64,000 bases of DNA, from the NCBI GenBank assembly GCA_015063785.1, contig SVTM01000009.1:1-64000 (forward strand), given 5' to 3'. Below the pieces are notes generated by a model. That model was not told where the DNA came from and searched no databases. It worked only from the letters and a program-made list of their open reading frames with translations. Position numbers and translations under genes: made by a program. Shown here one piece after another: positions 28,407-54,941 of the stretch (positions within the stretch are counted from its first letter, which is position 1; the number at the start of each line of letters is the position of its first letter). This DNA is from Oscillospiraceae bacterium. Lineage in GTDB: Bacteria > Bacillota > Clostridia > Oscillospirales > CAG-382.

Positions 28407-28445
28407 TTGGCATCTTTCAACATAATGTTGAATTGATACGTAATA

Positions 28446-29987: not shown

Positions 29988-30033
29988 CCTTTAATTTGCT
30001 CCAAATCACCATTAAGAGTAACTCCTAACCAAT

Positions 30034-31314
30034 TCAAATCACTGTCAGCAATGCTGCGCAAAACCACAAATAGCTATATGTTACATTATCCACCGATATT
30101 AAAGATATCATTATAGTCAACAATCCAAGCGCAAGACTCAAAGTCAATTCTTTCTCGTTCTTACCGCTCAAATGCTTTGATTTATTAATACCTGAAATAG
30201 CAGCAACAACAAAGAGCAAACACAACGCGCCTCCGACAATCAACCCATTTTCGCATACAATAGATAACCAGTTGTTGTGGCAATCCCGAGCAGTACTGGT
30301 ATAGTATCTTGTTTGACCCATACCAATGCCTAACAACGGATTATGATCAAAAAAAATTGTTATTACATCTTTCCAAATAGAAAATCGACCGTATTCATCT
30401 GTCAACCCGGAACGATTATCATACGATGTCAACAAGCTGTTTATCGCATCATGCACAAAATCTGTTACGATAAGCAAAAATATAAGGATAAATACCAATA
30501 CAAGATTGACAAGCTTCATGTAATTGCGAACCCGGATATTGGCAATACGATATCCGGCAACAAGTGTCATTATAAATAGAATTGCAAAACACAAGAGGCC
30601 CATTCGTGAACCGGTTAGCAAAATACAAATTGCTGAAACGCCAATTCCGCACCACTCTTTAACAGTACCATTTCTGTTTATTATTCTTAGAAAACATATG
30701 ATTGAACATAAGGCAAACACACCTATAACTGAATTTGGATCAATCATCGTCCCTCTAAGACGATATATCTGCACGAGCGCGCCATCATAAAAGTTAGAGG
30801 TTAATAGGAAAAGACCGGACGACATTCTGTTCGCAGTTGCTACTCCGGGAATTAACATTCCGGCTTTCAGAAGAATATACGATATAATAAAAACGCTACC
30901 ATACCCAATTCCTGTTGCTACGCAAACATTCGGGACATCTTTCCAAGTTTCCTTGCCGCAACAGTTACAATAAACAAAACAGCACCCCCAAACAATGGTC
31001 AACAAAAGTGCCGCTTTAAGAGCACTATTAGAAGCATTGTTTGCAATATTCACCACAACAACAGCTCCAGACAATACACCGGCCGCCATAAGCCATTTAG
31101 TTGCATGCAACTGATAGCCGCCACGAATAAACATTCTGACAAGCAGTATCAAACAAAAAATCATATACGGTTTAATCGTTGCTCCGGCCACGGATATGCC
31201 GTACATATCCACCGGCATAAGTATCCAGATCAGATGCTCAAAGCTAACTTTTTTCTTTCCGAGCGCAAGGTACGACAACACCCAGGCTAAAATAATCCAT
31301 ATCCAAATTGCCAT
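30034..31314 (-). CDS. O-antigen ligase/polymerase-like (Wzy_C superfamily) membrane protein
   Basis: Multi-TM with 'LTGSRMGLLCFAILFI' and periplasmic-loop 'PLLGIGMGQTRYYTSTARDCHNNWLSIVCENGLIVGG' with His in the Wzy/WaaL loop. Confidence 0.8.
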   Translation of the reverse strand: MAIWIWIILAWVLSYLALGKKKVSFEHLIWILMPVDMYGISVAGATIKPYMIFCLILLVRMFIRGGYQLHATKWLMAAGVLSGAVVVVNIANNASNSALKAALLLTIVWGCCFVYCNCCGKETWKDVPNVCVATGIGYGSVFIISYILLKAGMLIPGVATANRMSSGLFLLTSNFYDGALVQIYRLRGTMIDPNSVIGVFALCSIICFLRIINRNGTVKEWCGIGVSAICILLTGSRMGLLCFAILFIMTLVAGYRIANIRVRNYMKLVNLVLVFILIFLLIVTDFVHDAINSLLTSYDNRSGLTDEYGRFSIWKDVITIFFDHNPLLGIGMGQTRYYTSTARDCHNNWLSIVCENGLIVGGALCLLFVVAAISGINKSKHLSGKNEKELTLSLALGLLTIMISLISVDNVTYSYLWFCAALLTVI

Positions 31315-31325
31315 ATTGCACTCCT

Positions 31326-32429
31326 TTAGTTATCTCTACAGTTTTCCTTCGCACGATTTTGAGCAGCCGACAGTGTAAAACGGCAACAAACAGTCTCGTA
31401 TGCCGCTGATGCGATTGTTTCATATTTATTGTTATCGGACACTGCTCGGCTTAATCCTTCCAGTATTCCGTCTGTTGTTGTGTTCTGTAAAAACCATCCG
31501 TTTTCGCCGTGACAAATCAAATCCCGAAGTCCGCCAACAGGCGAAGCAAGAACAGGGATACCGCAGCCCATCGATTCCAAAACGCTATTCGGCATTCCTT
31601 CGGTGTCTGTCGGAAACAACAGGTACTTCCAGCTCTTAATCGTATCGGGAATGCGGTTATGTTCAACCCATCCCAACAAATGAATATATGAATCGGCGTT
31701 AAGCTCTGCGATTCTTTCTCGGCACAACAATTCTTGCTTTCCCGAACCGATGATCTCCATGGAATAATCCTGATGAGTCTTGTGAAATTCATAAAAAGCA
31801 TCTATGCTTTCCATCACATGTTTTCCTGCGGTGAGTCGGCATATCATACCGATTGTCGGTTTTCGGTTTTCAAAAGCAATTTTGTCAGACGGATCGGTAT
31901 ATAAATGAATAATCCGACTATGTTTGTTTCGGATCAATCCTGCCCATTCGCTCAGCACACCCGGACTTTCCACGCACACGCTGTTGGCACGGTTTGCCAT
32001 TCGGGAAATCAGTTTTCCGGATAGCCTTGTTCCTGTACTCGATCTTCCCTCTTTCATCACGTTTCCGTAAAGGAAGTAGTTTACATCCGCTCTCTTGCAC
32101 TTTGCAGCTAAAAAAGGAAACAGCATTTTGTCTCCGATCCAAAAAAACACCGGAACGTCGCGAGAGACAGTGCGAAGAATATGCCAGGACATCTTCAATT
32201 GCAGAAGCAATATATCCAGCAAACGCTTTGCTTTGTTCTTTGCCCGCAAAATATGCCATGTGTGCAGGGTCGCTTTAACATCCGACTCAATCATAAGATT
32301 TCCGCCCACAACGTGTATTTCGTCATAAACGGCAGAAATAACCCGCAGAAATTTACTCAAGGTAACTTCTGCCGACCGATTGGCAGCAATCATTGGATTG
32401 GTTATCACATAACACACGTTGTTTTTCAT
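31326..32429 (-). CDS. Glycosyltransferase family 4
   Basis: 'IGMICRLTAGKHVMESIDAF...PTDTEGMPNSVLESMGCGIPVLASPVGGLRDLI'. Confidence 0.88.
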   Translation of the reverse strand: MKNNVCYVITNPMIAANRSAEVTLSKFLRVISAVYDEIHVVGGNLMIESDVKATLHTWHILRAKNKAKRLLDILLLQLKMSWHILRTVSRDVPVFFWIGDKMLFPFLAAKCKRADVNYFLYGNVMKEGRSSTGTRLSGKLISRMANRANSVCVESPGVLSEWAGLIRNKHSRIIHLYTDPSDKIAFENRKPTIGMICRLTAGKHVMESIDAFYEFHKTHQDYSMEIIGSGKQELLCRERIAELNADSYIHLLGWVEHNRIPDTIKSWKYLLFPTDTEGMPNSVLESMGCGIPVLASPVGGLRDLICHGENGWFLQNTTTDGILEGLSRAVSDNNKYETIASAAYETVCCRFTLSAAQNRAKENCRDN

Positions 32430-32450
32430 AGTTTACTCCGATTGGTTCAT

Positions 32451-33590
32451 TTATAAGACGTCAAATACCGATCTCAATTTTTGGTTATATTCAGTAACTG
32501 AAGATTGAGCTGCAAAAATGCGCCCGTTTTCCTGAAATACATCTGACCTGTTTATTGTTGACAATACAGCATCAATCGCACTTTGTATATCATTTTCTTT
32601 AAAAACAATACCTGCTCGGCTCACTTCAACAAACTCTTTTGCACCGGCAACGTCACAAGCCACCACCGGAATACCTGCCGCGGCAGCCTCCACACCTGCG
32701 AGTGGAAATCCTTCAAACGACGGTATCATCAACACAGACACAGCTTTTAGCATATCCGGAATATCCTCACGTCTTCCCAAAAGCACTGTCGCGTCTTCAA
32801 GTCCGCATTCTTTGATTTGTTGATTCAATTCATCTCTATATTCCTGTTCTCTGACTTCACCGGCAAACAGCCCAACTGCATCTATGCCAAGCTCACGGAG
32901 TTTTCGGATCACCGCCAAAACAAATGACTGCTGTTTTGAACGTTGAATCAACGCAACATGACCTATTAAAACACGGTTTTCAAGATGCAAACCGTATTGC
33001 ATCCGGACAGAGTCCAAAAAGCGCTGTCCGTTTCCCCCTGCATATCGGCTGTTATCCACAGGATTGTACAATACCTCTAACTTGGTGACAGCGGATGATG
33101 CGGCGATTTGCCCTCCAACGCAGTTAGATACTGCCATTACACGTTTCACGGCACGCCATTTGCTGCATACATTCAGCAGTTTTTTTGTCGGACCATCCAA
33201 GAATATATGGTGCAGATGCCATACAACAGGTTTGTGTTTCAGCGTCCCACATACTGCGCTCCATGGCAAAGCAGCAGGTCCGGGTGCATACAGGATGTCG
33301 GGCTTGTGTTTTCCGATCGCACGCAGAGACCGCATGATACATTTTGCTGACATCCAGGCATAGAGCAAATATGCTTTAATTCCTTTAACACCTGTCGGCA
33401 AATTCATATTGCCAAGCAGTATATAAGGTATTTGTCTTTTATCAAGTTCATCGGACAAAAGCCCTTTTTCGGGGATAAGGCACAGAAAGTCATATCGGTC
33501 TTGAAGCAGATCCATAACCATCAGCGTCATCTTCTGACCGCCGGAAACTGTTGAGAGTGTCTCCCAAACAAGTATTTTCTTTTTAGGCAC
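32451..33590 (-). CDS. Glycosyltransferase family 4
   Basis: 'PSFEGFPLAGVEAAAAGIPVVACDVAGAKEFV'. Confidence 0.88.
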   Translation of the reverse strand: MPKKKILVWETLSTVSGGQKMTLMVMDLLQDRYDFLCLIPEKGLLSDELDKRQIPYILLGNMNLPTGVKGIKAYLLYAWMSAKCIMRSLRAIGKHKPDILYAPGPAALPWSAVCGTLKHKPVVWHLHHIFLDGPTKKLLNVCSKWRAVKRVMAVSNCVGGQIAASSAVTKLEVLYNPVDNSRYAGGNGQRFLDSVRMQYGLHLENRVLIGHVALIQRSKQQSFVLAVIRKLRELGIDAVGLFAGEVREQEYRDELNQQIKECGLEDATVLLGRREDIPDMLKAVSVLMIPSFEGFPLAGVEAAAAGIPVVACDVAGAKEFVEVSRAGIVFKENDIQSAIDAVLSTINRSDVFQENGRIFAAQSSVTEYNQKLRSVFDVL

Positions 33591-35034
33591 CTATTTCACT
33601 CCCTACAAGTTGAAGAATCAAATCAAATATATCCGTCATTTCATATTGCTCTTTCACTAACTGAATGTTGGCACCGGAAATAATAGCAGTACGCCATCTA
33701 TGACCACCGGAAGACACCATGTGCATGGTACCGGACTTATCGAAGATTTTTTCTCCAAGCTCCCACTCGCCGCCATATCGTTCGTCCATCTGAAAGATGA
33801 TCTCAGGATATTTGTCCAAATGCTTTCCGTGATAGAATGTATTTGTGCGGACGATCCATTCAAACAGGGGTTTGTCCTCGCCATCAACAAGTATAGGACG
33901 TAAATATTCAATAATTTTGTCCGCTAAAGCATCCTTATCTTCAACACTGTCATTGATTCGGATTCCTCCATAACTGTAATTTTTGACAGCAGAGAGATCA
34001 CTCATATATGCCTGTGTGTGATCCCAATCAAAGTCTTTACCTGATGCAAAAACACTTTTCCATACAGGAAAACGCTTTGCCATTCTGACCGCCCATGAAG
34101 GCAAGCCTATGGTTTTTATGGTTTTCATTGCTGCTGACTTGATCAATCGTTTAGCTGTTTTTTTGACAGAGGTTTTCTTGGCGTTTCCTTCTTTCGGTGT
34201 CAAAAATCCGCCGCGGCGAAGCAGCTCGTTGATTCGAACCGTACATACGGGACGGGCTCCGTGACCGTGGTCGCTGACAATCAGCAAAGGAGTATTGGGG
34301 AATCGTTCTCTGACAGAACCAATATACCTGTCCATACGGATATACATATCCCGAATCGTATTCTCAAACGGATTAGAACCGGGATATAACGGATGTGTGG
34401 GATCGCAGTATTTCCAAAACTCATGTTGTATACCATCAGTTGTGGAAAAATAAGCAAAGAGAACATCTGCATCTTCGTTTTTCAACGCAAGGTCGGTCAG
34501 TCGGATTTCCTCCTCCGCTTTGGCAAAAAACTCATCACGAAGCGTGCCCAACGATTGTTCTGCTGTAAACTTGCTTTCTGTTCCAAGGATATCAATATTC
34601 GGAGAATATAAATCCTTTTTTTCTTCCGGATATACATAAATTTGACCGTCCAAAGGTCTTGTGATCATCAAACCGTTGATTTGCCAACCACGCTTGATAT
34701 TCATCGGAAGAAGGACTGCACATGTAAGTCCACGACTGTTCAGCACATCCCAAAATGTTTTTCCGTGAAATACCGAATCATCAAACGTAAGCGGTTTATA
34801 TGTGTTTTCCTTAGCTCCGAGATTGACAAAATTCAGAATACCATGCTCAGACGGGTCTTGACCTGTATAAATTGTTGACCAGGCAGGAGTGGTGTCTGCA
34901 GGAAAAACAGATCTGAGTTTAGGAAAACCGGATTCCTGCATCATTCCGTAAAGATTTGGCAGACTTTCTTTATATTTCAGAACAACATCCCGATCCATGC
35001 CGTCTATACCAAGGATAATCAATTTACCTACCAT
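33583..35034 (-). CDS. Alkaline phosphatase family / type I phosphodiesterase
   Basis: 'LIILGIDGMDRDVV', 'FPADTTPAWSTIYTGQDPSEHGI', 'LIVSDHGHG'. Confidence 0.85.
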   Translation of the reverse strand: MVGKLIILGIDGMDRDVVLKYKESLPNLYGMMQESGFPKLRSVFPADTTPAWSTIYTGQDPSEHGILNFVNLGAKENTYKPLTFDDSVFHGKTFWDVLNSRGLTCAVLLPMNIKRGWQINGLMITRPLDGQIYVYPEEKKDLYSPNIDILGTESKFTAEQSLGTLRDEFFAKAEEEIRLTDLALKNEDADVLFAYFSTTDGIQHEFWKYCDPTHPLYPGSNPFENTIRDMYIRMDRYIGSVRERFPNTPLLIVSDHGHGARPVCTVRINELLRRGGFLTPKEGNAKKTSVKKTAKRLIKSAAMKTIKTIGLPSWAVRMAKRFPVWKSVFASGKDFDWDHTQAYMSDLSAVKNYSYGGIRINDSVEDKDALADKIIEYLRPILVDGEDKPLFEWIVRTNTFYHGKHLDKYPEIIFQMDERYGGEWELGEKIFDKSGTMHMVSSGGHRWRTAIISGANIQLVKEQYEMTDIFDLILQLVGSEIGA

Positions 35035-35048
35035 TCTGTATTCCTCAA

Positions 35049-35723
35049 TCACTGCTTACATTCTTTAACACAGTTCATAACTGCATCTACCACTTCGCGA
35101 GTCATATTCTCCAATTCCTGATTACCGGATATGATAGTTGCGCCGTACAAGTCCGCAACTTTATCATAAAGAGGTTCGCGGATTTCGAGATACAGCGGAT
35201 CCGGAATATCATCCTTTCTGGAACAGCAGACATCCACAGGAGTCTTGATGTAAACAAGAAGATCCGGCTTTGGTGCCCGTTTCCACTTATGTTCCATCGT
35301 ATCTTTTATATAATCCTCGCCAAGACCAAGGTTTGTCGCATAAGTCACAACGTTGTCATATACATAACGATCCACAAGAAGTGTAGTGCCAAAAAGGCGT
35401 TTTAATGTGATGGAAAAGAATATCTGCAATTTGAATTCCATTGTTGTCAGTGCAGAAAAAACCCGATACACACCTTTTTTCTTCGATTGCTTCCGCATTT
35501 TTTCCAGATAGGCTTTATAATCGCCTCCGTACGGATCACTTTCGTGTTTCATCAGCAACTTTTTGCCCAGGTGTATTATCGGGCGCAGATACTTGATAAC
35601 ATAAGCTGCTCTGACAACTTCTACACGATACCCGGCGTCTTTAAGATGCTGATATGCATATTCAATACTTGTTGATTTTCCGGATCCGTCAAGACCCATA
35701 AAACAAATCATTTTTGGTTTCAT
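35049..35723 (-). CDS. Thymidylate-kinase-like P-loop kinase
   Basis: 'ICFMGLDGSGKST' Walker A, 'LLVDRYVYDNVV'. Confidence 0.75.
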   Translation of the reverse strand: MKPKMICFMGLDGSGKSTSIEYAYQHLKDAGYRVEVVRAAYVIKYLRPIIHLGKKLLMKHESDPYGGDYKAYLEKMRKQSKKKGVYRVFSALTTMEFKLQIFFSITLKRLFGTTLLVDRYVYDNVVTYATNLGLGEDYIKDTMEHKWKRAPKPDLLVYIKTPVDVCCSRKDDIPDPLYLEIREPLYDKVADLYGATIISGNQELENMTREVVDAVMNCVKECKQ

Positions 35724-36682
35724 TTCAAATTTTCCCTTATAGCTGTCAAGGCCTCAGCTGAGCAGATACTCCACGATATCGGTTCGGAAAGCAAGCCTTT
35801 ATCGGATTTCAGGCTGCTTAACATATGCATTTCGCTATTCATGTCAGCTTCGTCTGAGAGGATGCGAACTGCGCTGTCAACAGCATGAATATGTTTCAAT
35901 CCGGGCAGGTCGCTGCAAGCAGCAACCGGTGTGCCGCACGCTAAGGCCTCCATAACCGAAAGAGGTATGCTGATCACATATTCAATCGATTTTGTCGGAA
36001 ACAGGTATACATCTGCCATCTGATAGATTTTTTCTACGTTCTGTAAATATCCGGACAGGATCCTGACATTTGACTTCAGCAGCATATCTTTGGTTTGCTT
36101 ATCTTCAAACATTCCGCTTACCACGACAAGCTTTTCAAAGTCATTTTCCGACAGTTTTGTAAATTGCTCCAACCCTCGCCCGGAAGAGCAATGCCCTACA
36201 TGAACCACTAGCTTTTTGTCCGGAGAAAATCCGTATTCTTGCTTGATCTTATATACCTCATCGGCGGACACAGGAACAAACTTATCTTTGTTTATTCCGA
36301 CGCGCAGAAACACAGCTTTACATCCGTTCTTTATCTTTACGCCTGATAAATCTTCCGGTATCAAAGCAAAGTAATGATTTCCGGGCGCTTTTCTTTCACA
36401 AAGCGCTTTATATGATCTATCCGGTTCCTGGACGCATACTAACCATACATTTTTACAGAGTAGGCAAAGGACTCTGATTAAATAATAGAGTGCCTTGCCG
36501 GCTCTTGCAAAAACAACTGTGACATCGCTGCTAAGCGTTTTTTTTACCAGTCCTGGGATGTCCTTAAGTCTGGAATAAAGAACTGTACATTCTTTCTCCC
36601 ATTCACGCGAATAATGTGTCGCAATGTTACGCATTCCTTCGTTTTCCTGACCATTGATGTTACTGATTACGTGAATTGTCAT
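35720..36682 (-). CDS. Glycosyltransferase (GT4/GT-B-like)
   Basis: 'VVHVGHCSSGRGLEQFTKL...FPTKSIEYVISIPLSVMEALACGTPVAACSDLPGL'. Confidence 0.8.
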   Translation of the reverse strand: MTIHVISNINGQENEGMRNIATHYSREWEKECTVLYSRLKDIPGLVKKTLSSDVTVVFARAGKALYYLIRVLCLLCKNVWLVCVQEPDRSYKALCERKAPGNHYFALIPEDLSGVKIKNGCKAVFLRVGINKDKFVPVSADEVYKIKQEYGFSPDKKLVVHVGHCSSGRGLEQFTKLSENDFEKLVVVSGMFEDKQTKDMLLKSNVRILSGYLQNVEKIYQMADVYLFPTKSIEYVISIPLSVMEALACGTPVAACSDLPGLKHIHAVDSAVRILSDEADMNSEMHMLSSLKSDKGLLSEPISWSICSAEALTAIRENLK

Positions 36683-36700
36683 TGCGACACCCCTTTATCA

Positions 36701-38158
36701 TTATCTGAACAATGTTTTCTTTAGTTTAGAAAAAGCTTTTAGTGAGCGTTTCAAATCTTCAAAATCACGCAAGCCACGCCACATTCTGTGTACAATATAC
36801 CAAGGACGCAGATAATATTTTTTTCTCGCATAGGAACAAAACGAAACCAGCTCATCAGCAGATAGTTCCGGCGTTTGAATAATACAGTTCAAGGTTCCAT
36901 CCTCACGAAGATACTCTTGGTAATCGCCGTTTATATATCCGTTTTCCATAGCCCACTGATATGCACGCGTCCCGGGATATGGAATCAGCGGGAAAAATTG
37001 TGCCGTATCAGTTTTATAACGCAACGCAGCTTTGAGAGTATTCTCCATTGTTTGTCGTGTTTCGCCCGGATTGCCCACCATATAACAGGCGTGTACCATC
37101 AATCCTGCTCTACGAGCATCTTTTATGTAGTTTTCGATCTGTGCTACTGTTGTTCCTTTCTGAATGTTATTGAGGATATTTTGATCTACACTCTCAATTC
37201 CCGGAATAATAAGATGGCAGCCTGCTTTCTTCATCTGAACCATGGTCTCATAATCCAAGTTCACACGAGCATTACACAGCCAACGGATTTTTTTGTGCAA
37301 CCCTCGTTCAATCATCATTTTACACAGAGTTGCAACCCTATCTTTATTGATCGTAAAAGTATCGTCTTCGAATACAATTTCTTTTACATTGGGAAAGTTT
37401 TCAACGATATATTCTATTTCGCCAATAACATGTTCTGGCGATCTTAAGCGATACTTGTGTCCATGAAGTGTTTGCGGATATACACAAAAGTTACAGCGCG
37501 CAGGACATCCGCGTCCGGTAAACATTTGAATTACAGGAAAAGCTGCAGCCGGAAATACATAGTCTGTAACACACAGATATTCTTTTATAAACTCCGCTGC
37601 ATATGGAATTTGATCCAAGTCTGTAATCAGTTCCGCATCCGGATTATGTACGATACTTTTGTTGTCTCTGTATGTCAAGCCACGGACTGTATTTAGCTTT
37701 TCACTATTCTTCAAGGCAAATGCCAGATCGAGAACGATCTGGTCAAACTCTCGGCGCGCAATGCCATCAATTCCTGCGTTGATGTTCATTGTTTCTTCCG
37801 GCACAGCTGACGGATGAGTGCCCACGAGAAGGGTAAATGAAGAGGGGTATCTTTGTTTTATCTGCAAAGCAAACTCTGCATCAGAATAAATTGACGGGGT
37901 ACTTGTATCTAAAACAAATAACCTAGCGTCAGCTGCTTCATTCTTTATTCGCTCTAATGTTTGATCTTTAGTGAGTTGTTTTGCCGGAGCATCAATAAAT
38001 ACGATTTCAAAGCCATGTTTGCGACAATAAGCAGCAGCGTAAATCAGCCATAACGGGTAGTATAACACACCGCTATGGCCAATCGATGGGCTTCTGGATT
38101 CTCTGGAAAACTTTCCATATTCAGCCTTAAACGGCGGATTGATAAAACATATTTTCAT
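36701..38158 (-). CDS. B12-binding-domain radical SAM protein
   Basis: N-terminal cobalamin-binding-like domain, 'FTGRGCPARCNFCVYP' CxxxCxxC, 'CYMVGNPGETRQTMENT'. Confidence 0.9.
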   Translation of the reverse strand: MKICFINPPFKAEYGKFSRESRSPSIGHSGVLYYPLWLIYAAAYCRKHGFEIVFIDAPAKQLTKDQTLERIKNEAADARLFVLDTSTPSIYSDAEFALQIKQRYPSSFTLLVGTHPSAVPEETMNINAGIDGIARREFDQIVLDLAFALKNSEKLNTVRGLTYRDNKSIVHNPDAELITDLDQIPYAAEFIKEYLCVTDYVFPAAAFPVIQMFTGRGCPARCNFCVYPQTLHGHKYRLRSPEHVIGEIEYIVENFPNVKEIVFEDDTFTINKDRVATLCKMMIERGLHKKIRWLCNARVNLDYETMVQMKKAGCHLIIPGIESVDQNILNNIQKGTTVAQIENYIKDARRAGLMVHACYMVGNPGETRQTMENTLKAALRYKTDTAQFFPLIPYPGTRAYQWAMENGYINGDYQEYLREDGTLNCIIQTPELSADELVSFCSYARKKYYLRPWYIVHRMWRGLRDFEDLKRSLKAFSKLKKTLFR

Positions 38159-38171
38159 AGGATCTTGTCCT

Positions 38172-38939
38172 TTATTTTAGATTTCGATACTTTTTTATTC
38201 CTCGTATGCAATACCAGATCATGTAATATGCGGACTCAAAAGCGGAAAGACCGACGCTACGATATGTATTCCAATTCATTTTCGCAGCCTTGATTTTATT
38301 TCCTGATTTTGATGTGGCAGACACCCGATATATTAGTAGTGGTTGATTGATTCCTTGAACTACGGCTCCGTCACGAAGGCAACCGAGCCAACAGGCAAAA
38401 TCCTCATGCATATGGTCCCCCTCGACCATGTGCTTCTGCAACAGTTCTTTTCGTACCAAAACAGAAGAGTTTGAAATGATGTTTTGCTTTAGTAACTGAC
38501 GATATGTGATTCGGTTTGGTATCTGCATAATCCACGAGTACGGTGTACCGTCAGCCTTAATAAACGAAGATCCGGTAAAAAACAAATCAGCCTCATCATT
38601 TTTAAGAAGTTCCATCTGTTTTTCAAGCTTGTCTGCTGTCCATAAATCGTCACTATCCAAAAAAGCAATCCAGTTGCCCGATGCCGAATCCACACCTCGT
38701 TTACGGCTGTATGAAACACCACTGTTAATCGGATTGGTTAATACCACTATCCGCGAATCCATTTTTTTATATCTACAAACTAAATCAGCCGTGCAATCAG
38801 TTGACGCATCATTAATAATTATCAATTCCCAACAATCGCATGTTTGAGACAAAACGGATTGTATAGACTCTTCAATTGTCTTTTCGGCATTATAAGCCGG
38901 CATAACAATGGATATCAAAGGAGGCTTATGTTTTATCAT
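38172..38939 (-). CDS. Glycosyltransferase family 2
   Basis: 'ISIVMPAYNAEKTIEESIQSVLSQTCDCWELIIINDASTD...IAFLDSDDLW'. Confidence 0.93.
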   Translation of the reverse strand: MIKHKPPLISIVMPAYNAEKTIEESIQSVLSQTCDCWELIIINDASTDCTADLVCRYKKMDSRIVVLTNPINSGVSYSRKRGVDSASGNWIAFLDSDDLWTADKLEKQMELLKNDEADLFFTGSSFIKADGTPYSWIMQIPNRITYRQLLKQNIISNSSVLVRKELLQKHMVEGDHMHEDFACWLGCLRDGAVVQGINQPLLIYRVSATSKSGNKIKAAKMNWNTYRSVGLSAFESAYYMIWYCIRGIKKYRNLK

Positions 38940-39045: not shown

Positions 39046-39516
39046 TCAACCTTTTTTTATATTCGCAAGATTACTGCGAAGGCGTATAACAAAATGCCTG
39101 AACGGTCTAATTGCACACCAAAAGCGGCAATACAGCCTATAGCCGGGATTTGACACCTCTATACGCTTGCCATCTCTTGTGAATGCCGATACTACAGCAA
39201 CCAGTTGGTCGGGATATATTTTTTCCATCTGCACAAGGTTATCTCCGTTGCAAACATAGTAATCGTCTTTTACCGCAACAACTCTGTGCATTACGTATTT
39301 TCCGCTGGGATACTGATATACAGGCAGATCATATTTCTTTAATTTTTCAGGTAATGGAGACAGTTCAACACTGTCTTTTCCTTCTCGCAGCATGGGCAAC
39401 ATACTTCTTCCACGAAAAGGCAAATACCTGATCACTTGTCCCGATAAAACCTGTTCACGGACAAGCTGCATAAGTTCTTCGCCCTCTATGAATCCTTCAT
39501 TACGCAAGGAAATCAA
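39046..39516 (-). CDS. S24/S26 family (signal-peptidase-like) peptidase without an obvious N-terminal TM
   Basis: 'LPFRGRSMLPML' catalytic Ser block and 'KYVMHRVVAVKDDYYVCNGDN' (Ser/His-type dyad). Confidence 0.8.
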   Translation of the reverse strand: MISLRNEGFIEGEELMQLVREQVLSGQVIRYLPFRGRSMLPMLREGKDSVELSPLPEKLKKYDLPVYQYPSGKYVMHRVVAVKDDYYVCNGDNLVQMEKIYPDQLVAVVSAFTRDGKRIEVSNPGYRLYCRFWCAIRPFRHFVIRLRSNLANIKKG

Positions 39517-39760
39517 GCTCCTTCAGACGAGCTATAAAAGTGTCCACACTCTTTTCAGCTCTTTCGCGATCCACATCATACTCTGCAAGCAGTGCTTCCA
39601 CCAGATCAGCTTTTTCTGCGTCAACCGTCAACTTTTCCCACAAAAACTTTCCTGTGTCATTCAGCGTGATCATCATATCAAGATTAGTCACACCTTCGGA
39701 AGGTAGGGCAACTGTTTGACCGGCTACGGTACGCAGAATAAAACCTTCTTTTAACTTCAT
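39500..39760 (-). CDS. PqqD-family protein (RiPP recognition element fold)
   Basis: 86 aa 'FILRTVAGQTVALPSEG...ITLNDTGKFLWEKLTVDAEKADLVEALLAEYDVDRERAEKSVDTFIARLKEL'. Confidence 0.88.
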   Translation of the reverse strand: MKLKEGFILRTVAGQTVALPSEGVTNLDMMITLNDTGKFLWEKLTVDAEKADLVEALLAEYDVDRERAEKSVDTFIARLKELDFLA

Positions 39761-40515
39761 GATTGTTTTCCTCCGAATCTCTTAATTGCTTCTTTACTCA
39801 TTGCCGCCTGAGAAATCAGTGCGGCTTCTTTTGTGGGCGTACAGCGGAGTTTCCACATCGGGACAGATAGCATCAGGTCATCCAGCAATTCCAACAGACG
39901 AGTTCTTACATTCGCCATTTTGGGTCTAACAGTCTGATCCAACAGTGAAAAAATTGCTTTTGCACCATAATAAGGTTCTATCTCGTTGATTTCACCGCGT
40001 GACAGAACACAAATACCGCCAATCGGTACTCGCATGTTGATGTTTTGATCGGTTTTTCCGCTCCATGGAGTGCCATACGCATACCAACAGTCATCCTCCT
40101 TGCGCAGTGCAGGCTTGTCATCATTAAGCATAACAACTGCTTCGCCAAACGCAGCTCTCCACATATTTGTATGAGTAGATTTTCCTGTTCCGCATGGAGC
40201 TGAAAACAGGTATGCATATCCATCCATCACAACAGCAGATGAGTGAAGCAACATTCCATCGAAATCCAGCAGCTGACGATAAAAACTGCCGCCGGTACAA
40301 AGATACTCACAATCATCAAGACTGAGATGAGGCTGTCGGTCTTTCAGGCTTTGCGGATTACTTGTAATGGTAATATCCGCTTGGCCAACAGTTTCGGTTA
40401 AGTATGGTTCTGCCTGACTAAGTGTTCGGCCGAATGAATCCATTCTAACACGCAACCCGGCTATTAAATAATCATGTTCCATAAACTCCTCGATTCCTTG
40501 TTCCGCCGAAAGCAT
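39757..40515 (-). CDS. HprK-related kinase-like protein
   Basis: 'LLHSSAVVMDGYAYLFSAPCGTGKSTHTNMWRAAFGEAVVMLNDDKPALRKEDDCWYAYGTPWSGK'. Confidence 0.8.
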   Translation of the reverse strand: MLSAEQGIEEFMEHDYLIAGLRVRMDSFGRTLSQAEPYLTETVGQADITITSNPQSLKDRQPHLSLDDCEYLCTGGSFYRQLLDFDGMLLHSSAVVMDGYAYLFSAPCGTGKSTHTNMWRAAFGEAVVMLNDDKPALRKEDDCWYAYGTPWSGKTDQNINMRVPIGGICVLSRGEINEIEPYYGAKAIFSLLDQTVRPKMANVRTRLLELLDDLMLSVPMWKLRCTPTKEAALISQAAMSKEAIKRFGGKQS

Positions 40516-40541: not shown

Positions 40542-41243
40542 TCACTTTGCGTCGCGATGATGCAATACAATTCCCACTGTTTTCAGCATAATTTTGAAAT
40601 CCATCCACAAAGAACGCTTCTTTATGTACTCAATATCATACAGAATCTTTTCTTCCGGGCGAATGCTATATCCGCCATTGACTTGCGCCAATCCTGTAAT
40701 ACCGGGCTTTACTGCCAATCGCTGTGAAAAGCCATGAATATATGTTTCAAACGCTTCATAAAAACAAGGGCGCTCAGGTCTTGGTCCGACAAGAGTCATA
40801 GATCCTGCAAGCACATTGAAAAATTGCGGAAGCTCGTCCAAACGATACTGTCTTAGGGCGGCGCCGAGCTTGGTGATACGGGAATCCTGAGCCCCCTCTG
40901 ACCACTGTGCTCCGCCGGCTTCGGCATCCATTGTCATTGTTCGGAACTTGATGATCTTGAAAGGTTTGCCGTTTATTCCCAATCGAGTCTGACGGTAGAA
41001 TACCGTTCCTCCCATATTAGCTTTTATCATTATTGCAATGATAAGCATAGGGAGAGCTGTAACAATGATTCCAATAACCGCGAAAATAATATCCGCCATG
41101 CGCTTGATAAAATTGTATATATTCTTTTTTTTCAGTTGTGGCAGCTGCTCAACATAGAATTCATCCGTGACTTCGTATGGCAAAATTACCGTATTACTGC
41201 TGCCGGGTAATTCTGTCCGGACAATAGTAGCTTCGTGTTGCAT
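40542..41243 (-). CDS. Undecaprenyl-phosphate sugar-1-phosphate transferase
   Basis: 'IKFRTMTMDAEAGGAQWSEGAQDSRITKLGAALRQYRLDELPQFFNVLAGSMTLVGPRPERP...KPGITGLAQVNGG'. Confidence 0.94.
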   Translation of the reverse strand: MQHEATIVRTELPGSSNTVILPYEVTDEFYVEQLPQLKKKNIYNFIKRMADIIFAVIGIIVTALPMLIIAIMIKANMGGTVFYRQTRLGINGKPFKIIKFRTMTMDAEAGGAQWSEGAQDSRITKLGAALRQYRLDELPQFFNVLAGSMTLVGPRPERPCFYEAFETYIHGFSQRLAVKPGITGLAQVNGGYSIRPEEKILYDIEYIKKRSLWMDFKIMLKTVGIVLHHRDAK

Positions 41244-41407: not shown

Positions 41408-42547
41408 TTACCCCCAACCAGTTCCATTATCCCCTTCATCGGGAAGTCCCTCATCGGTCTCGGGTATTTCATTTTCGGGTGTATCGGTTCCGGGTGTATC
41501 AGTTCCGGGTGTGTCGGTTCCGGGTGTATCGGTACCGGGTGTGTCGGTACCGGGTGTATCGGTACCGGGTGTATCGGTACCGGGTGTATCGGTACCGGGT
41601 GTATCGGTTCCGGGTGTATCGGTTCCAGGGGTGTCGGTTCCCGGGGTGTCGGTTCCGGGAGTGTCGGTTCCCGGGGTGTCGGTTCCGGGAGTGTCGGTAC
41701 CGGGTGTGTCTGTACCGGGTGTGTCTGTACCGGGTGTATCGGTACCGGGAGTGCTGGTTCCGGAACTACCGGTTCCGGGTCTTATTGTGCCGGAACTGCC
41801 TCCGGTGGAACTGCCGGTTCCGGGTCTTGTTGTGCCGGAACTGCCTCCGGCGGAACTGCCGGCTCCGGGAGTCGGAACTACAGGAATGCCAACGTTTTTC
41901 TCACGACCGTTTTTCTGAATTTTTCTGGCTTCAGAAAGCTGACGGTCTGTAAAGACATTTTGTTCTACCAAACGCTTTGCCAAAGTGATTTCGGAGCCGT
42001 TCAGTTTTGCATCCAGTGCATTCCAAAATATACCAATTGCATCTGCTCTGGTAAAATCAGCATCCGCTTCAGCGGTTTGTATCAGTCTGAGCTCATGCGC
42101 CAATTTGTATGGGTCATTCCAAACAAAGAGGGGTTCCTCTCCTTGGTCTGAATAATTCAAAGCTCGGAGAACCAGTGTGAGGAACATATAGTCAGTCATT
42201 TTATCGTTAGGAGAAAAGGTGGTTACAGCTGTTCCGTTGGTGATACCGTTTTCAAAGGCATAACCTACATAACCTGCCGCCCACTCGGGGACATCGGTAA
42301 ATTCATTATTGTATACGCCATTCTGTGCTGTTTTTTCCATGCCGATCATACGAACCAAAAGAGTTACACCTTCGGCTCGAGTCAAACCCTTTTCAAGCTC
42401 GTATCCATTGTCGGTGCCGAGAAAAAGCCCAAGCTCGTTAAGAGCATCGGCTGTGTTGACGTCGGATTTATCAACAGCAAAAACGGTGACAGACAAAATG
42501 CCCACCAATATCGCAAGGATCAGTACTGTAATTATTTTTTTCATCAA
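41408..42547 (-). CDS. SLH-domain protein with (GTDTP)18 stalk and C-terminal EGDNGTGWG tag
   Basis: Signal peptide, SLH-like repeats ('EFTDVPEWAAGYVGYAFENGITNGTAVTTFSPNDKM'), Gly/Ser/Pro/Thr-rich stalk, C-terminus DEGLPDEGDNGTGWG. Confidence 0.85.
   Translation of the reverse strand: MMKKIITVLILAILVGILSVTVFAVDKSDVNTADALNELGLFLGTDNGYELEKGLTRAEGVTLLVRMIGMEKTAQNGVYNNEFTDVPEWAAGYVGYAFENGITNGTAVTTFSPNDKMTDYMFLTLVLRALNYSDQGEEPLFVWNDPYKLAHELRLIQTAEADADFTRADAIGIFWNALDAKLNGSEITLAKRLVEQNVFTDRQLSEARKIQKNGREKNVGIPVVPTPGAGSSAGGSSGTTRPGTGSSTGGSSGTIRPGTGSSGTSTPGTDTPGTDTPGTDTPGTDTPGTDTPGTDTPGTDTPGTDTPGTDTPGTDTPGTDTPGTDTPGTDTPGTDTPGTDTPGTDTPGTDTPGTDTPENEIPETDEGLPDEGDNGTGWG
41477..41760. repeat. 15-nt tandem repeat encoding GTDTP units
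   Basis: 18 in-frame TDTP units plus one STP variant, read directly. Confidence 0.9.
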
Positions 42548-42736: not shown

Positions 42737-42847
42737 TTAACCCCAACCGGTTCCGTTATCGCCTTCTGCGGGATCCGAAGCTGTGATAACATCTTCAACG
42801 TTGAACGGAAGAATTTCAACAACAGGTTCTTCAAATAACTTTTTCAT
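42737..42847 (-). CDS. 36-aa precursor-like peptide MKKLFEEPVVEILPFNVEDVITASDPAEGDNGTGWG
   Basis: Manual translation; SD AAGGAGAA upstream of ATG; C-terminal nonapeptide identical to that of the adjacent SLH protein; not in the ORF track because of its size. Confidence 0.8.
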   Translation of the reverse strand: MKKLFEEPVVEILPFNVEDVITASDPAEGDNGTGWG

Positions 42848-42868: not shown

Positions 42869-45800
42869 TTAGTGCAGAGATGCGTAAGCCGCATCAGAGA
42901 ACTTCATAATTTCGTAGAGCCAAGGATTATTAGTTGCGTTTCTTGCAACATAGCTTTCAAGACTATCCACTACTGTCACTATTTCTTCACCAGCAGCATT
43001 CTTGAACACACAAGTAACGTCACAACGACCATCTGCTACAACAATTTTGTCGATAGTGAATACAGTATAAGAACCACTTGTTGTACAATCTGCAGCGTTA
43101 ATAGTTACAGTTTGAGTCACACCATAATGATCGACGAAGCTGATATCTGCAGAGCCACCGGAAATTGCAGAAGTCTTAATTGCAATCTGCATAGAGATTT
43201 TGCTTTCAAGTACAAACTGTGTTCCATAGTAAGCATCTGCGTTATTACCAGTAATGCTACGTCCATCTACGCATGTCGGGGTTGTCTGAGTTGCGTATGC
43301 CTTTTGTGTTTCCGTCAATGTGCTATTTGCAAGATCTGCAGTATTGTAATTAAACTTAACCTGTGCAGCTGCTCCATAGTTCAGCATGTCGATCAGAAGA
43401 GTTCTTGTTTCTTCCGCTGTACGTGTAGAACTTGTAGCAATGTCTTCTTTGTCAACGTTACGCAGGATGTAATCGCGAATACTATCAGTCTTGGTTACAC
43501 TGATCTGCTTATCATTAGCATCATAGATAGTAACATTAACTTTATCACACATTTCTTTTGCCGCGATACCTGCATACTTAATTACATAGTAATTACCACT
43601 CTTAGTACAATCACTCAAATTAATGGTAATTGTCTCATCAGCTCTGTCATCTGCATATTCTCTAACAATTACAGCATATCCGGTATTATCAACATAGCTT
43701 GTGTTGAATGCAAAGTTGATATCCAGTTCATTGCCGAGAGTGAGGTTTGTACCGAAGAATTCCTTCAGTTCAACCTTCGCCAATGTATACTTACCTTCCG
43801 CATAAGCTACTTCATAGTCATCAACGGTAGTAGTAACGTTGCCACATTCGTTAGCAGTAACTACAGAAGCAACATCTGTCAGAACGACAGAACCGTTGTT
43901 AACGAGAGTAGCAATTCCATCAGCCTTGCGGCATGCAACTGTGAGGTTGCCGCCTACATTGACTGTACCGTCTGCACCGATGTTAGCGGTTTCGCCGTCT
44001 GCCATGTAGATTTCAACCTTTGCGCCATTCTTGATGTCAAGAACAGCAGCCTTGCCTGCAATTGTACCGATGTTGATACCATGGCTGGAGTTGTAGCTGT
44101 AATCTGCACCACCGTCGGAGAATGCCTTACCAACGATAAGTGTAGCACCGTCTACAGTGATCTGTGCGGGCTTGCCAACGCGGTCAGAATCTGTGTTGTC
44201 ACGGCCGCTGTAATCCTTACCGGTCAGCTGCATTGCTGCAGTATTGAACTCTGCAGTATCTTCAACAGTAATCATACCGTTGCCGTAAACGTTGGTCTGC
44301 CATGTTGCGATAAGCTTAGCAGTGTCAGATACTGTGATGTAACCCATTGTTGTAACCTGCATTGCGTAAACAGTGGAAGTGCCGGAGATATTGATTGCAC
44401 CGTTGTAGTAAGACTTAACGATAGAGTTGCCACCTGCATCGTGAACGATAGAGTCGATCACGTTGATTGTAGCGTTCTGACGTGCGTCAAGTTCGGGGAT
44501 CAAGATCTCTGCATCCTTGATGTTTACTGTTGCGTTCTGGAATGTAACAACAGGAAGTTCATACTTAGGTGCAGTACCTGTGATAGTGAATTCGATATCC
44601 TTTTTGAAGTCGATTTCTGTGCTGATTTCGCTGCCTTCAACATCAAGAACGGTGATTGTCTCGCCATTCTGAACTGCGTCGAGTGCTTCAGCGAATGTCT
44701 CATAGCCAACTTCGTCGATCTTAGCAACAGCGGGAACAACCACGTACTTGCCGTCGGCATACTTAACCACGCTGCCTTCAACAGTGGTGGTTACAGTAGC
44801 TCCTGCGGGAGCTGTGAGAGTTGCATCAGCTGCAGTGAGAACGTACTTAGCGTACTGGCTGTTAGTAAGAGTTCCAACAGTGTTTGCGCCTTCAAACTTG
44901 AATGTCTGAACGCCGGAGTAACCGGTGCGTTCCCAAATGCCGATGCTGGAAATATTACAATTCTTCAAAGTAACAGTCTTTCCAGCGTAGTTCTGAATGT
45001 AGAGACCGTATGTAACGCCAGTCATCTTTACGTTTTCGAGGGTTGCGCTAGTGCCGTATACCCAATGGAAACCGTAGTTGCCGCCGTTAACAGTTACATT
45101 CTTAACCACAACTGTGGGAGTGGACTTGTTTGCATACAAGAAGCCATAACCGTAGTTGGAAACAGTACAGTTTTCAACTGTGATGCTCTTGATACGGTTT
45201 GTAGTAACGGCATAGCCGGTACCATCCACAAAGTTCACGTTCTTAACAACAGCAGCTGTGCTAGTACCCGAAACGCTGATGTTGCCGGTGTACTTGAAGT
45301 TTGCACCGTCGATTGTGAGGCTCTTGTTAACAGTTACGTCTTCGGTAATGTCAGCAAGAAGAACGATTGTGTCCTTTGCCTGTGCTGCGCCAATTGCTTC
45401 TTCGAGAGATTCGTACTTAGTACCGTTTACTTCAGCAACATAGTTAGCTACTCTTACGCCCCATGTGCCGTTATTCTCTTCAAGAATATAACCTGCGGGA
45501 AGACCTGCGTTTCCGGTTACTACAGTAGAACCGTTCTTAAGAGCGGCTGCAGCAAGGGAAAGTGTTACAGGATATTCTGTAGCAGCTGCTTCAGCAGACA
45601 GGAGAACGTCGCCAATCAGAGATGCCTCTGCCTTTACTGTAAGTGCACCGGGGTTAGCATTAGCGTTAGCCTGCTGCATCCAGATAGACTTGTTAGCACC
45701 CTCGATTGTACCGCCATTGACGGTGAGGATGTTCTGTGCTTCAGTACCGTTGAGGAACTGACGGATTGCACGGTAGGTAGACTTAACAGTGCCGCCCTTG

Positions 45801-48800
45801 ATAACGGTTTCTGCATAAGTACCCTTGCCGTTTGTGAGGTTGTCGATACCGTAAGCCATATCGGTGCCACCGAGGTGTTCGATAGTAACACCGTCAACTG
45901 TAAGCTTACCGCGCTGGTTGGAGATTACAGAGGAGTAAGCGTTAAAGAAGCGGTTGTTGGTAGCAGTAAGAGCGATCGTACCTGTGCCGCTAATGGTCAA
46001 GTCTGCGCCGGGATTGATGTTGATCAGACCGAAGCTGCCGGTAGCATTGTCAGTACCGGTGATGTTGAAGCTGCCCAAACCAATCTCAACTCTCTTGCCT
46101 TCGGGGATGTTGACGGAACCGGTCAGAACGATGTCGCTTCTGACAGTGATGTAACCACCTTCTATCACTTCGTCGATCGCTTTCTGAAGAGAATCGAAGT
46201 ACTTAGAACCGTTTGCGGTATAAGCGGAAGCTACATAGGTAATCTTATTGCCGTTCAGGGTAACATTGCCGTTGGCAACGTAGTAGGGATCCTTGAACAT
46301 AGCCTTAGCTTCTTCAACAGTCATATTATCATCTGTGATAGCAACGTTGGAGCCGGAAGCCCTCAGATCGATCTGGAAGCCCTCAGCAAAGTCACAGTCA
46401 ATGAAGCTGACGTTCTTGTTGTAGTAGCGGTGGCCAGCGTAGTTGCCCTGGTCGATGGAGCAGTTGGTGTAGCTTACATTGCCAAATGTGCTTGCATAGC
46501 TGCACCAGCCGGTGATATCACAGTTTTCAAACGCGATATTGCCGCCTGTGGATCCATCGAAGTGGACAGCAAAGTTGGAGCCATTGATGGTGGAATTCTT
46601 AATTGTAATATCGCCTTTAGCGTAGCAATATCTCATGCCGTTGTAGCCGGTGAGTTTTACGCCTTCGATAGCGATATCCTTACCGTTTACGCAAAGTGCG
46701 CAGTCGTAATTGCCGGTCTTTTCGTTATGAACGTTGAGATTCTTAACTGTTGCGCCGGAAGAAACGACTACTCTGCCGGTGATGTTAACAAGGTTACCAG
46801 TAGCATCGGTTTCACCGACAACTATGATTGCCTTGTTTACAGCAATGTCTGTGGTGTAATCGCCTGCAAGGATTGTAACGGTTTCGCCGGGCTGTGCAGC
46901 GTCGATTGCTTCCTTGATAGTTTCGTAGAAGATATCGCCGATCTGTGCCACGTAGTTCTTAGGAGCAAGAACGGTTTCGCCGTTTACTACAACAGTGATG
47001 TCGTTGTTAGCGCCGAAGCTGCCCTTCTTGTTGTTCCACAGGCTGTTGCCGGAAACATTACCGTTACCAAATCCTGTAACAGTGGTAGCTGCATCAACAG
47101 TGATTCTAGCACCTGTGGAGAAGCTGGTATCGATTTCGATTGCTGCCTTGCCGTCAACCGGTGCGGAAGCATTGAATGTAGTCTTTGCCACAGTGAGATC
47201 AGTGAAAGCACTTGTGCTTTCGGTGTAAACAAGCACGGACTTACCTACAGAATTGAAGGTACATTCGTTGAATGCAACTGCACCTGCACCGTATGTCCAT
47301 ACGTTGTATGCATCGGCACTGTTCTGGTTGAATGTACACTTATTAAAGGTTTCGGATGTTCCATAGAGGAATACCTGACCGTTAATTGTACAGTTGTTGT
47401 AAACCAGATTGCCCGAATGCTGGAGACCTGTGTAGTTTACGTTAGGATAGTAGTCGAAGGTTACGTTGTTGAAGGTAACATTCGCGCTACCCATGTTGAA
47501 CGCGCCGATGTTGTCAAATACAACGCCGTCAACCGCACCTGTAATGGTGATATCCTTGCCGGAAATACCAACGAGAGAATATGTGCCGGCAGCGTAAATC
47601 TTGACTTCGTCGCCATCCTTTGCTGCTGCGAAAGCATCAGCGAGCTTGAGGTAAGCTGTGTCACCGATCATTGCCTCTACAACTACGGGTGTGCCGTTTA
47701 CAACAACATCGACACCCATTTCAGCAATGTCGGGGAGATAGATAACATCTGTAAGAGCAGAACCGTCGGTAACAGAGCAACCGTCGAAGGTAGCAATTAC
47801 ATCATTCTTACCGAAGTCAATATTCATGTTGGGATTGAACTCAACGTTATTAAGGTCTGCATCCTGATAGAATCTGAGCTGGTTGTAATAACCCTCTGCA
47901 AATTCAGTATCAGAAATCGTAACCTTGTTGATAGTAGAAGCAAAGCTGGTCCAACCTGTAATCACACAGTTTTCGATTACGATATTGCCGCCGGCAGAGC
48001 CGTCAAAGTGAATACCGTAAGTAGCACCTGTAATAACGCTGTTCTTGAATGTTACAGTGCCGGTAGTGTAGCAACTACGGAAGCCGTTTCCACCGGTAAT
48101 GTTACAATTTTCAACAAGGACATCCTTTGCGTTGATATAACCAGCACTGCTGGAACCATTATTTACGTTAAGGTTCTTCACGGTCGCGCCGTCAGCAGTG
48201 ATGTTCAGCTTGCCGGTGATGTTAACAAGGTTGTTACCATCAGCATCGGTTTCGCCGACAACTGTGATTGCCTTGTTGATGTTAAGATTCTGAGTATAAG
48301 CGCCTGCAAAGATTGTTACGGTTTCGCCGGGCTGTGCAGCTGCGATTGCTTCATTGATGGATGCGTAGCAAACATCGCCGATCTTAGCAGTAGCGCGAAC
48401 TACCTTGTAAGCGCCGTCGGCATACTTAACCACGCTGTCTTCAACAGGTGTGGTTACAGTAAATCCTTCGGGAGCTGTGAGAGTTGCATCAGCTGCAGCG
48501 AGAACGTACTTAGCGTACTGGCTGTTAGAAAGAGCTACAACAGTGTTTGCGCCTTCAAACTTGAATGTCTGAACGCCGGAAGAACCGGTGCGTTCCCAAA
48601 TGTTGATACTTGTAATATTGCAATTCTTGAGTTCAATTGTCTTTCCAGCGTAGTTCTGAATGAGAAGACCGTTTGTAACGCCAGTCATTGTTACGTCTTC
48701 GAGGGTTGCGGTAGTGCCGTATACCCAATGAATACCGTAAATACCACCATTCATAGTTACCTTGTTAACAACGACTGTGGGAGTGGACTTGTTTGCATAC

Positions 48801-51800
48801 AGGAATCCATCATAACCATTGAGCGTACAGTTTTCAACTGTGATGCTCTTGATGCGGTTAGTAGTAATAGCATAAGTCTCTGTATAATCCACAAAGTTCA
48901 CATTCTTAACAACAGCCTCTGTGGTATTACCCGAAACGCTGATGTTGCCGGTGTACTTGTGGCTTGCACCGTCGATTGTGAGGCTCTTGTCAACAGTTAC
49001 GTTTTCGGTAATGTCAGCAAGAAGAACGATTGTGTCCTTTGCCTGTGCTGCTGTGATTGCCTTAGCGAGGGTTTCATACTTCGCTTCGCCGATCTGTGCA
49101 ACATAGTTAGCTACTCTTACGCCCCATGTGCCGTCGCCGTTATCCTGAGGAACATATCCTTCTGCGCAGTACGCATCTGCAATACGAGTATTGAACGTAC
49201 CGCCGGAGATAAATCCAACAATCTGCTTGTCGGGTGTTTCGCCTTTAACGCTTGCATATGAGCCTACTGCATCTGTCTTAGCAGAATTAAATGTACCGCC
49301 GGTAATGCTTACAGTCGGTGTTTCATTTGTCGGCTCATTATTTGCACGGTTCACGATCTGGAGAGCATGGCCGGTGCATGCTGCAAAGTTGTTGTCCCAA
49401 TAGCCATCGTCTTCAAATGCGGTTTCGGGTGCGGTACCGTTAATTGTACCGTCTGTAATCAGCAGAGTACCACTTCTGAAGCTGATACCGTCCATACCTT
49501 CGATGATACCGCCGTTTACAGTCAGCTTACCATTCATAGGATGCTCGATACCGGCAGTAGAATAACTATTGCTGATAGCAGTTGTGATATAACCACCATT
49601 GATGGTGATCTCGGTATTATCACGGTTTCTGTTACCTGCGATAGCAGCGAAGAAGCCCTTGAGTGTACCGCCATTGACGGTCAGCTTAGCTGTGCCGTTT
49701 TCAGCGTTATCGCCGGATGCAGTCATCATAACCGCACCATAGACGTCATACTTGCTGTTGCCCCAGCCTGCTTCGCTGTAGCTTGCATCAAGAGTACCGT
49801 TCTTTGCGTCAGAGCTGTCTGCGATTGTGAGGTCACCGCCGAAGTCAACTGTAATAAGAGCTGTACCGCTCTCTGCAGCGCCATATTCCCAAACAGCGGG
49901 ATCATAGTTTACAGTCTTACCGTTGAGGTCCAAAGTAACAACCTTACCTGCTGCGATGTGAACAGTCTCGGTAAGAGTAACGTCACTAACCAGTGTAACG
50001 GTTTCGTTAGCCTGCGCTGCGTTAATTGCATCAGCGATAGATCTGTAGTATGTATCACCGATCTTAGCAACGTTACGAATGATTTTGCCGTCGAGATTAA
50101 CAGTGGAAGTACCACTAATGTTAACAAGATCGATCATCTTGCCATTAGCATTAGTACAATTTGTAACTGTTACTACTGCGCCGCTAACAGAATGGATACC
50201 ATCCTGATATACATCAGAGGTATTGGCGCCGTCAACATCAAATTTACAATTCTTGATTGTAGCATCAAAGTAGGTTCTGATTACACCGTAAGTGCCGTTG
50301 TCCATGATGGTACAGCCATCAAATACACAGCTTGCGGGAGAACCGCTCATTGCTACCCAACCGATAATTGTACAATCCTTATAAGTAAGGTTTGCACCTT
50401 CAGTAATGCCGTCGAAGTGAATTGCGTAAACGCTTGTAGCTTCGAAGGTTACATTTTCAAATACGAGGTCGCCCTTCGCATATGCCCATCTCTGAGCGTT
50501 GCCGCCCTTGATGTGCAGATTCTTAAGTGTAAGGTTTTCAAGAGTACCGCCGAGTGTACCTTCGAGGATGACAGCAGGTGTGCCGTCATCATTTGTTTCG
50601 CCGACAACAGTAATGCCTGCCTTCATGGAAGGAAGTGTATATGTGCCTGCAAGGATTGTTACGGTTTCGCCGGGCTGTGCAGCTGCGATTGCATCAGCAA
50701 GGGTTGCATAGCCGGTCTTTCTGGTATATCCGTCAAGATCACGTCCGATATAAGCCACAGCGTCAACTACTGTCCAAGTACCGTCGCCATTATTCTTAAT
50801 CGCGCTCTTATTTTCGGGATACTGAACTTCCCAAGTATAATGCTGATGGAAAACATCCGCATTGTAGGTACCGCCGGTAACCACTACATGACGCTCGCCC
50901 TGTCCTTTTGCGTTGAAGATCCAAGGAGAACCGTTATCACCGGTGCCAACATTACCAAGAGTGAAGGTACCGCCATTGATAATTATGCCTTCGTTTCCGC
51001 CGGTGTAAGCCAGAGAATCTTTTGCCTTATCAAGCTTGTAAGTACCGTTTTCAACAGTAATGGTGCAACCGTCTTCATAGTTTGCAAGGAGAGAGTAAAC
51101 CGTATTGGTTGCAGCAACATCTACAGTACCGTTACCGGTAAGAGTCAGGTGACCGTTATTATCTGTGGAGAACACACCAACCAGCATAATGTTGGTTCCT
51201 GTGTATTCGCCGGAGATAGTCTTGCCGTTAAGATCGATAGTTACAGTCTTGCCATCTACGAGGAAGTAAGTGTCGTGGCTACCGTCAAGAAGCTGAAGTT
51301 CGGTCTTTGCAAGATCGATGTTTTCGAGAAGAACGATTGTGTCGTTTGGCTGTGCTTCGTTGATAGCTTCCTGCAGGCTGGTGTACTTGGTTCCGTTGAG
51401 TTCTGCAACGTCAATTACATCCTCAACTACTGTGTAACCACCATCTGCAGCTACTGCCTTGTAGCCGTCAGCTACATATGCAGTAGGATCCTGATCGAAA
51501 GTACCGCCGGTGATCGACATTGTGCCGCTTACACCGAGAGTAGCATTCTTACCGCCGGAGAAGTCACCGCCGGTGATGGTAGCCTTTGCACCTGCCTGAA
51601 CACATACTGCGGAACCGCTGTCCATAGTAGTGCCCTTGGGGCCTACGAATGTACCGTCCATGATAGTAACATCTGCCCCGCCGGAGATATTTACTGCATG
51701 ACGTGTACCGCTTGTTGCGTCAATCTTGTATGTACCGCCGTTGATGGTTGCGGTAACCGCGCCATCAATGCGCACGCCGTGACGTGTGGAGGTTACGTTA

Positions 51801-54865: not shown

Positions 54866-54941
54866 TGAAACTCCTTTCAAAAAATTTTGCTTTTGGGTTT
54901 GGAATAAAAGGGTGTTTGGGGGGCTCTCGGATGTTTTTCAT
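54843..54941 (-). CDS. Possible 32-aa leader ORF MKNIREPPKHPFIPNPKAKFFERSFNAHEIQF overlapping the giant gene start
   Basis: ATG preceded by AAAGGAG; stop lies just inside the giant ORF (23-nt overlap). Confidence 0.3.
   Translation of the reverse strand: MKNIREPPKHPFIPNPKAKFFERSFNAHEIQF

Follow-up and report, generated by a model that had tools for sequence, protein, structure and literature searches.

A probable LPP-type RiPP pathway within a clostridial capsule operon, and precursor genes dispersed behind genes for secreted proteins

What would a kinase, a leader-binding protein and a protease make inside a capsule operon that holds no classical RiPP synthase? The question is raised by positions 39046-40515 (minus strand) of the window, as we call the whole 64,000-nucleotide stretch of an Oscillospiraceae contig (SVTM01000009.1) analysed here, where overlapping genes encode an HprK/PEPCK-fold kinase, a PqqD-type RRE and a Ser/His/Asp signal-peptidase-like protease. 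An earlier note on this DNA had pointed out these three tightly packed genes, together with a PF14907-like nucleotidyltransferase at the far end of the cluster, and both observations hold: the trio is real, with fold, PF05402 match and catalytic residues in agreement, and the nucleotidyltransferase closes the operon. We consider it probable that the locus is a pathway of the linear polyphosphorylated peptide (LPP) type set inside a capsule operon, its modified peptides being deployed with surface proteins and capsule. The gene run reads as follows:

55139..57424, minus strand: Wzz, CpsD-like kinase and CpsB phosphatase, opening the capsule gene run (PF02706, AAA/ParA, PF19567)
42869..54880, minus strand: 4003-aa Sec-secreted protein (signal peptide heuristic; beta-helix E 4e-9)
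42737..42847, minus strand: LPP-like precursor peptide of 36 aa, MKKLFEEPVVEILPFNVEDVITASDPAEGDNGTGWG (strong ribosome site; conserved family)
41408..42547, minus strand: secreted SLH-domain protein; 18 PGTDT repeats, EGDNGTGWG end (SLH E 8.5e-7)
40542..41243, minus strand: capsule priming sugar transferase, Bac_transf (PF02397 E 1e-65)
39757..40482, minus strand: HprK-like kinase of the LppK/PadeK type (annotated 39757-40515; fold match, catalytic residues)
39500..39760, minus strand: discrete RRE of the PqqD family, LppB type (PF05402 E 8e-17)
39046..39516, minus strand: signal-peptidase-I-like Ser/His/Asp protease, LppS type (TTG start)
27756..38939, minus strand: genes for polysaccharide assembly, flanked by the protease and nucleotidyltransferase genes (domain scans)
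26564..27766, minus strand: PF14907 nucleotidyltransferase of the LppN/PsmN type, last operon gene (PF14907 E 1.7e-46)

The gene for the 4003-aa protein stops 21 nt before the precursor gene. The polysaccharide segment contains glycosyltransferases, a B12 radical SAM protein, a phosphodiesterase, and thymidylate-kinase-like, Wzy-like, flippase-like and hexapeptide transferase genes; the B12-binding radical SAM protein (36701-38158, minus strand) is near HpnJ (E 1e-115), below the cutoff.

The kinase gene most likely starts at 40482 and not at 40515, as judged from the alignment with locus L081 and from the ribosome site (AGGAG-TTT-ATG, MEHDYLIAGL). A Pfam scan gave no match for this protein, nor for any of 14 relatives; in its predicted structure (pLDDT 90) it resembles PEP carboxykinase and HPr kinase, the best match having E 8e-7, and by alignment it carries H91, K112, D132 and D133. 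In the RRE, alignments show N34 and F75 kept, with S71 standing where LppB has Asp. For the protease, the match to archaeal signal peptidase is weak (NCBIfam TIGR02228 at E 4e-4, short of the cutoff); in its model it is similar to SpsB/LexA (prob 1.00, with a modest E of 2.5e-3), and its S38, H77 and D92 are invariant across 14 relatives; it is likely the leader peptidase. PDB sequence searches with the kinase, protease and nucleotidyltransferase returned nothing useful. Among known cassettes, SynChlorMet (NCBIfam ScmC/ScmD) offers a likeness of the kinase to ScmC (E 1e-6) and, weakly, of the RRE to ScmD, both far below family cutoffs.

The earlier note had treated the missing lasso synthase as an anomaly, a view that the literature does not bear out. 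LPP RiPP clusters, described in 2026, comprise a YxxP-leader precursor, an HprK-like kinase, a discrete RRE, an archaeal-type signal-peptidase-like leader protease, an NTP transferase and an MsbA-like exporter; they often lie in capsule loci and have no lasso cyclase, as exemplified by lpp of Paenibacillus alginolyticus (PMC13381572), so the missing synthase is normal for the class. In that system LppK phosphorylates core Ser3, LppS cleaves after Thr-1 with the help of the RRE, and LppB binds YxxP, its Asp bonding the leader Tyr; the exporter is a frequent companion and not a stated requirement, and the homologue of the nucleotidyltransferase showed no activity in the heterologous host used there (PMC13381572). 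Within the open-access literature searched, this was the sole match for the gene set. Like LPP clusters, the window has an HprK-like kinase with His-Lys-Asp-Asp, a discrete PqqD-fold RRE, a Ser/His/Asp protease and an NTP transferase, together with a leader resembling the [Y/W]xxPx[V/L] type, a capsule setting and no cyclase among the operon proteins scanned. It departs from them in having Phe for the leader Tyr and Ser for the RRE Asp, a leader that diverges from the Bacilli consensus after the proline, no exporter at the locus, precursors dispersed behind secreted-protein genes, and a core tail that recurs at the end of an SLH protein; the main text of PMC13381572 makes no mention of S-layer, SLH or secreted proteins.

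Phosphorylated lasso peptides of the paeninodin/pseudomycoidin type also combine an HprK-like kinase with His-Lys-Asp-Asp, an RRE and a nucleotidyltransferase, and PsmN has been reported to install hexoses on phospho-Ser (PMC9266682). By contrast with those systems, neither a macrolactam cyclase nor a B2 cysteine protease turned up in the domain scans of the operon proteins examined, and the predicted phospho-site is near the core start instead of at a C-terminal Ser. A lasso peptide was rejected as product on the absence of cyclase and B2 protease from those scans; the earlier note had likewise seen neither in the sequence.

The 36-mer carries the leader motif FxxPxV (FEEPVV), a predicted cleavage site after T22 and a predicted phospho-site at S24. 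Beyond FxxPxV, its leader follows a Clostridial variant, E..F..EDII.S, as against the LPP consensus YxxPxVLxHQxIxFETxxS. Across Clostridia and other Bacillota, sixteen cassette loci have precursors of the form MKK.[YF]..P.[IVL]E..F..EDII.S, most with a Ser close to the predicted cleavage site. This Clostridial family ([Y/F]xxPx[IVL]E..F..EDII.S) is new, and no match to it was found in Pfam or NCBIfam. In one genome (G006), tandem precursors have diverged leaders and cores that are identical over the 27 codons compared, with two synonymous and no amino-acid changes.

Leader and RRE covary. RRE position 71 is Ser at all three Phe-leader loci (the window, L149 and L208), and Asp (11), Gly (1) or His (1), never Ser, at thirteen Tyr-leader loci (Fisher p 0.0018, uncorrected for descent). 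In the RRE tree, where branch supports are moderate, L149 and L208 fall together and the window falls with L040, which has Asp; since the window RRE groups apart from the other two, the Phe/Ser pairing likely arose at least twice. Both locus types coexist in genome G623 (L133 and L208). Given the leader motif and this covariation, the 36-mer is likely the substrate of the RRE pathway, much as the earlier note had proposed for its PqqD protein and the peptide, and peptide phosphorylation and cleavage by the cassette are the best reading of the trio.

Several points weigh against an LPP-type reading: the lack of an exporter at the locus, the position of the nucleotidyltransferase 11 kb downstream of the core genes together with the inactivity of its published homologue, and the leader departure, as do the housekeeping kinases in the class count and the g11 orphans described below. 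No MsbA-like exporter was found in the window, and the best match elsewhere in the genome is 44% identical, with no close copy; such exporters were found at L119, L123, L129, L130, L132 and L195-L197, and at L119, L123, L129, L130, L132, L195 and L197 the order kinase-RRE-protease-ABC-nucleotidyltransferase is accompanied by a precursor. A scan of genome contigs with the kinase gave two loci only. L081 is a fragment of an Oscillospiraceae metagenome-assembled genome whose kinase is 89% identical in its first 100 residues; there an ABC transporter gene immediately precedes the kinase gene, and DNA from that junction is kept in the window. This suggests that an exporter was lost from this site, the L081 contig being of low coverage and possibly chimeric.

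Precursors are not confined to cassettes. The host genome has two further precursors on other contigs (C45 and C55), both of the Tyr type and each behind a large secreted-protein gene; its second cassette (L041) has Asp in the RRE and no adjacent precursor. By profile search, precursors occur in 24/63 family genomes and 36/391 class genomes, with up to 13 per genome. Across the class, a kinase homologue is present in 35 of the 36 precursor-bearing genomes versus 110/391 overall, a count that takes in some probable housekeeping HPr kinases and so is a less specific marker than the full cassette. The association persists without the ten genomes that supplied query precursors (25/26, p about 5e-15) and is weaker at the family level (16/24, p 0.01), where several genomes are incomplete. 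The earlier note had named a conserved neighbourhood without any short peptide gene as contrary evidence; such neighbourhoods do occur locally at many loci, but several of these genomes carry a precursor elsewhere, mostly behind secreted-protein genes, so its local absence does not refute the peptide hypothesis.

Several variant loci were observed besides these. At L041 (G000:C45:37501-57500), L033, L034 and L043, a second kinase-RRE-protease cassette adjoins Wzz/CpsD/CpsB genes; in L034, L041 and L043 the cassette is followed by a lipoprotein-like gene of ~780-815 aa, and in all four by a gene for a peptide of 57-61 aa, conserved in the genus, that contains a GSYTG motif and ends much like QDADDL. 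A kinase-RRE pair lies beside a dihydrofolate-reductase-like gene, without the protease, at L115, L120, L125, L126 and L128, and an SLH-like secreted protein gene adjoins the kinase at L113, L115, L120, L125 and L128. Fused RRE-kinase or kinase-RRE genes are found near YxxP-leader peptides in L082 (6172-7329 and 7435-9165), with an ABC transporter, and in L061 (10697-13210), with a probable radical SAM gene; they are possibly a sister system.

The position behind secreted-protein genes is the common one. One simple signal-peptide rule was applied to all complete same-strand genes just upstream of a precursor, and 48 of 59 evaluable precursors, not all independent as some loci come from closely related genomes, have an upstream gene that this rule scores as Sec-secreted, against a background of 19% (296/1521 ORFs; p about 2e-24). 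The proportion is 14/15 for cassette-linked precursors, 2/2 for orphans of the host genome, 18/25 for family orphans and 14/17 for orphans of two other genomes; exceptions are concentrated in genus g11, where orphans often have no secreted neighbour. The gap between the two genes is mostly about 10-25 nt, and several are of 100-300 nt. Since the precursor gene follows a giant secreted-protein gene in the window and a secreted-protein gene in most relatives, we infer that the peptide would be made together with a surface protein.

A further connection to the surface is the tail EGDNGTGWG, the last nine residues of both the 36-mer and the SLH protein, a match that the earlier note does not list. 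Four of the nine codons differ, all synonymously, with zero amino-acid changes, and the pattern DNGTGWG-stop has exactly two occurrences in the genome. In appearance the SLH tail is a precursor core, as many family cores have the GDN...W motif in common. The precursor relies on an RRE leader and the SLH protein on Sec, so the common tail would most simply serve recognition once both have left the cytoplasm. A widespread sorting signal was considered and rejected: the exact tail is limited to these two genes of the genome, mismatch hits in 394 order genomes were scattered, reversed-pattern controls also gave matches, and the checked hits were not tails of such proteins. Small secreted proteins beside other cassettes share C-termini pairwise (L129/L130 ADIVDY, L118/L121 DDDNWTGLY, L141/L055 LPFVPFD); these tags, and QDADDL, did not match the precursors of their cassettes.

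By homology with LPP enzymes, the RRE would bind the 36-mer leader (FEEPVV), the HprK-like kinase would (poly)phosphorylate a core serine, most likely S24, and the protease would take off the leader, most likely after T22, to give ASDPAEGDNGTGWG; the PF14907 enzyme may put a sugar or nucleotide on the phosphate. The product would be made alongside the surface protein, and the SLH protein would show the same tail on the wall via the Sec route, so that an extracellular partner probably recognises the common tail. Homology and covariation give this biosynthetic reading good support; for the surface role the support is gene order and co-occurrence only. The part in polysaccharide or S-layer assembly that the earlier note put forward would be a candidate function.

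Other readings of the same genes have to be weighed. The direct target of the cassette might be the tail at the C-terminus of the SLH protein and of other surface proteins, the 36-mer being only one small tail carrier. The identical nine-residue C-termini under selection and the SLH gene lying between the precursor and kinase genes fit this idea, which we nevertheless hold to be quite unlikely, as an RRE leader motif is missing from the SLH protein, which is exported via Sec; besides, it is the sole protein of at least 100 aa to end in such a tail among the loci retrieved, whereas leader-bearing peptides are common. The tail could also be a glycan attachment site (N-G-T) for the polysaccharide of the operon, with the LPP enzymes only preparing the peptide. 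Such a role, for which the priming transferase and the flippase-like and Wzy_C/O-antigen-ligase-like genes would be at hand, seems unlikely given that the N-X-S/T sequon is absent from most precursor cores and that scans of the operon proteins revealed no oligosaccharyltransferase. That the enzymes have small molecules or sugars as their substrates in capsule synthesis, the peptide being unrelated, would explain the many cassette loci with no precursor beside them; the Phe/Ser covariation, the genome-level co-occurrence and the orphan precursors in several of those very genomes make it highly improbable.

An LPP-type pathway acting on the 36-mer remains the preferred reading. A broader proposal we advance tentatively, as a possibility rated somewhat below even: in Clostridia, the LPP enzymes may form a genome-wide system working in trans, in which many secreted surface proteins are each paired with a leader-bearing peptide gene of their own, the phosphorylated product joins its protein at the capsule or wall, and the SLH protein displays the same tail in wall-anchored form. 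In the Phe/Ser pairing, leader-RRE specificity gains a second natural solution. Furthermore, the dispersed precursors behind secreted-protein genes and the core tail on a wall protein provide a genomic handle on LPP function, pointing to a surface role that can be tested.
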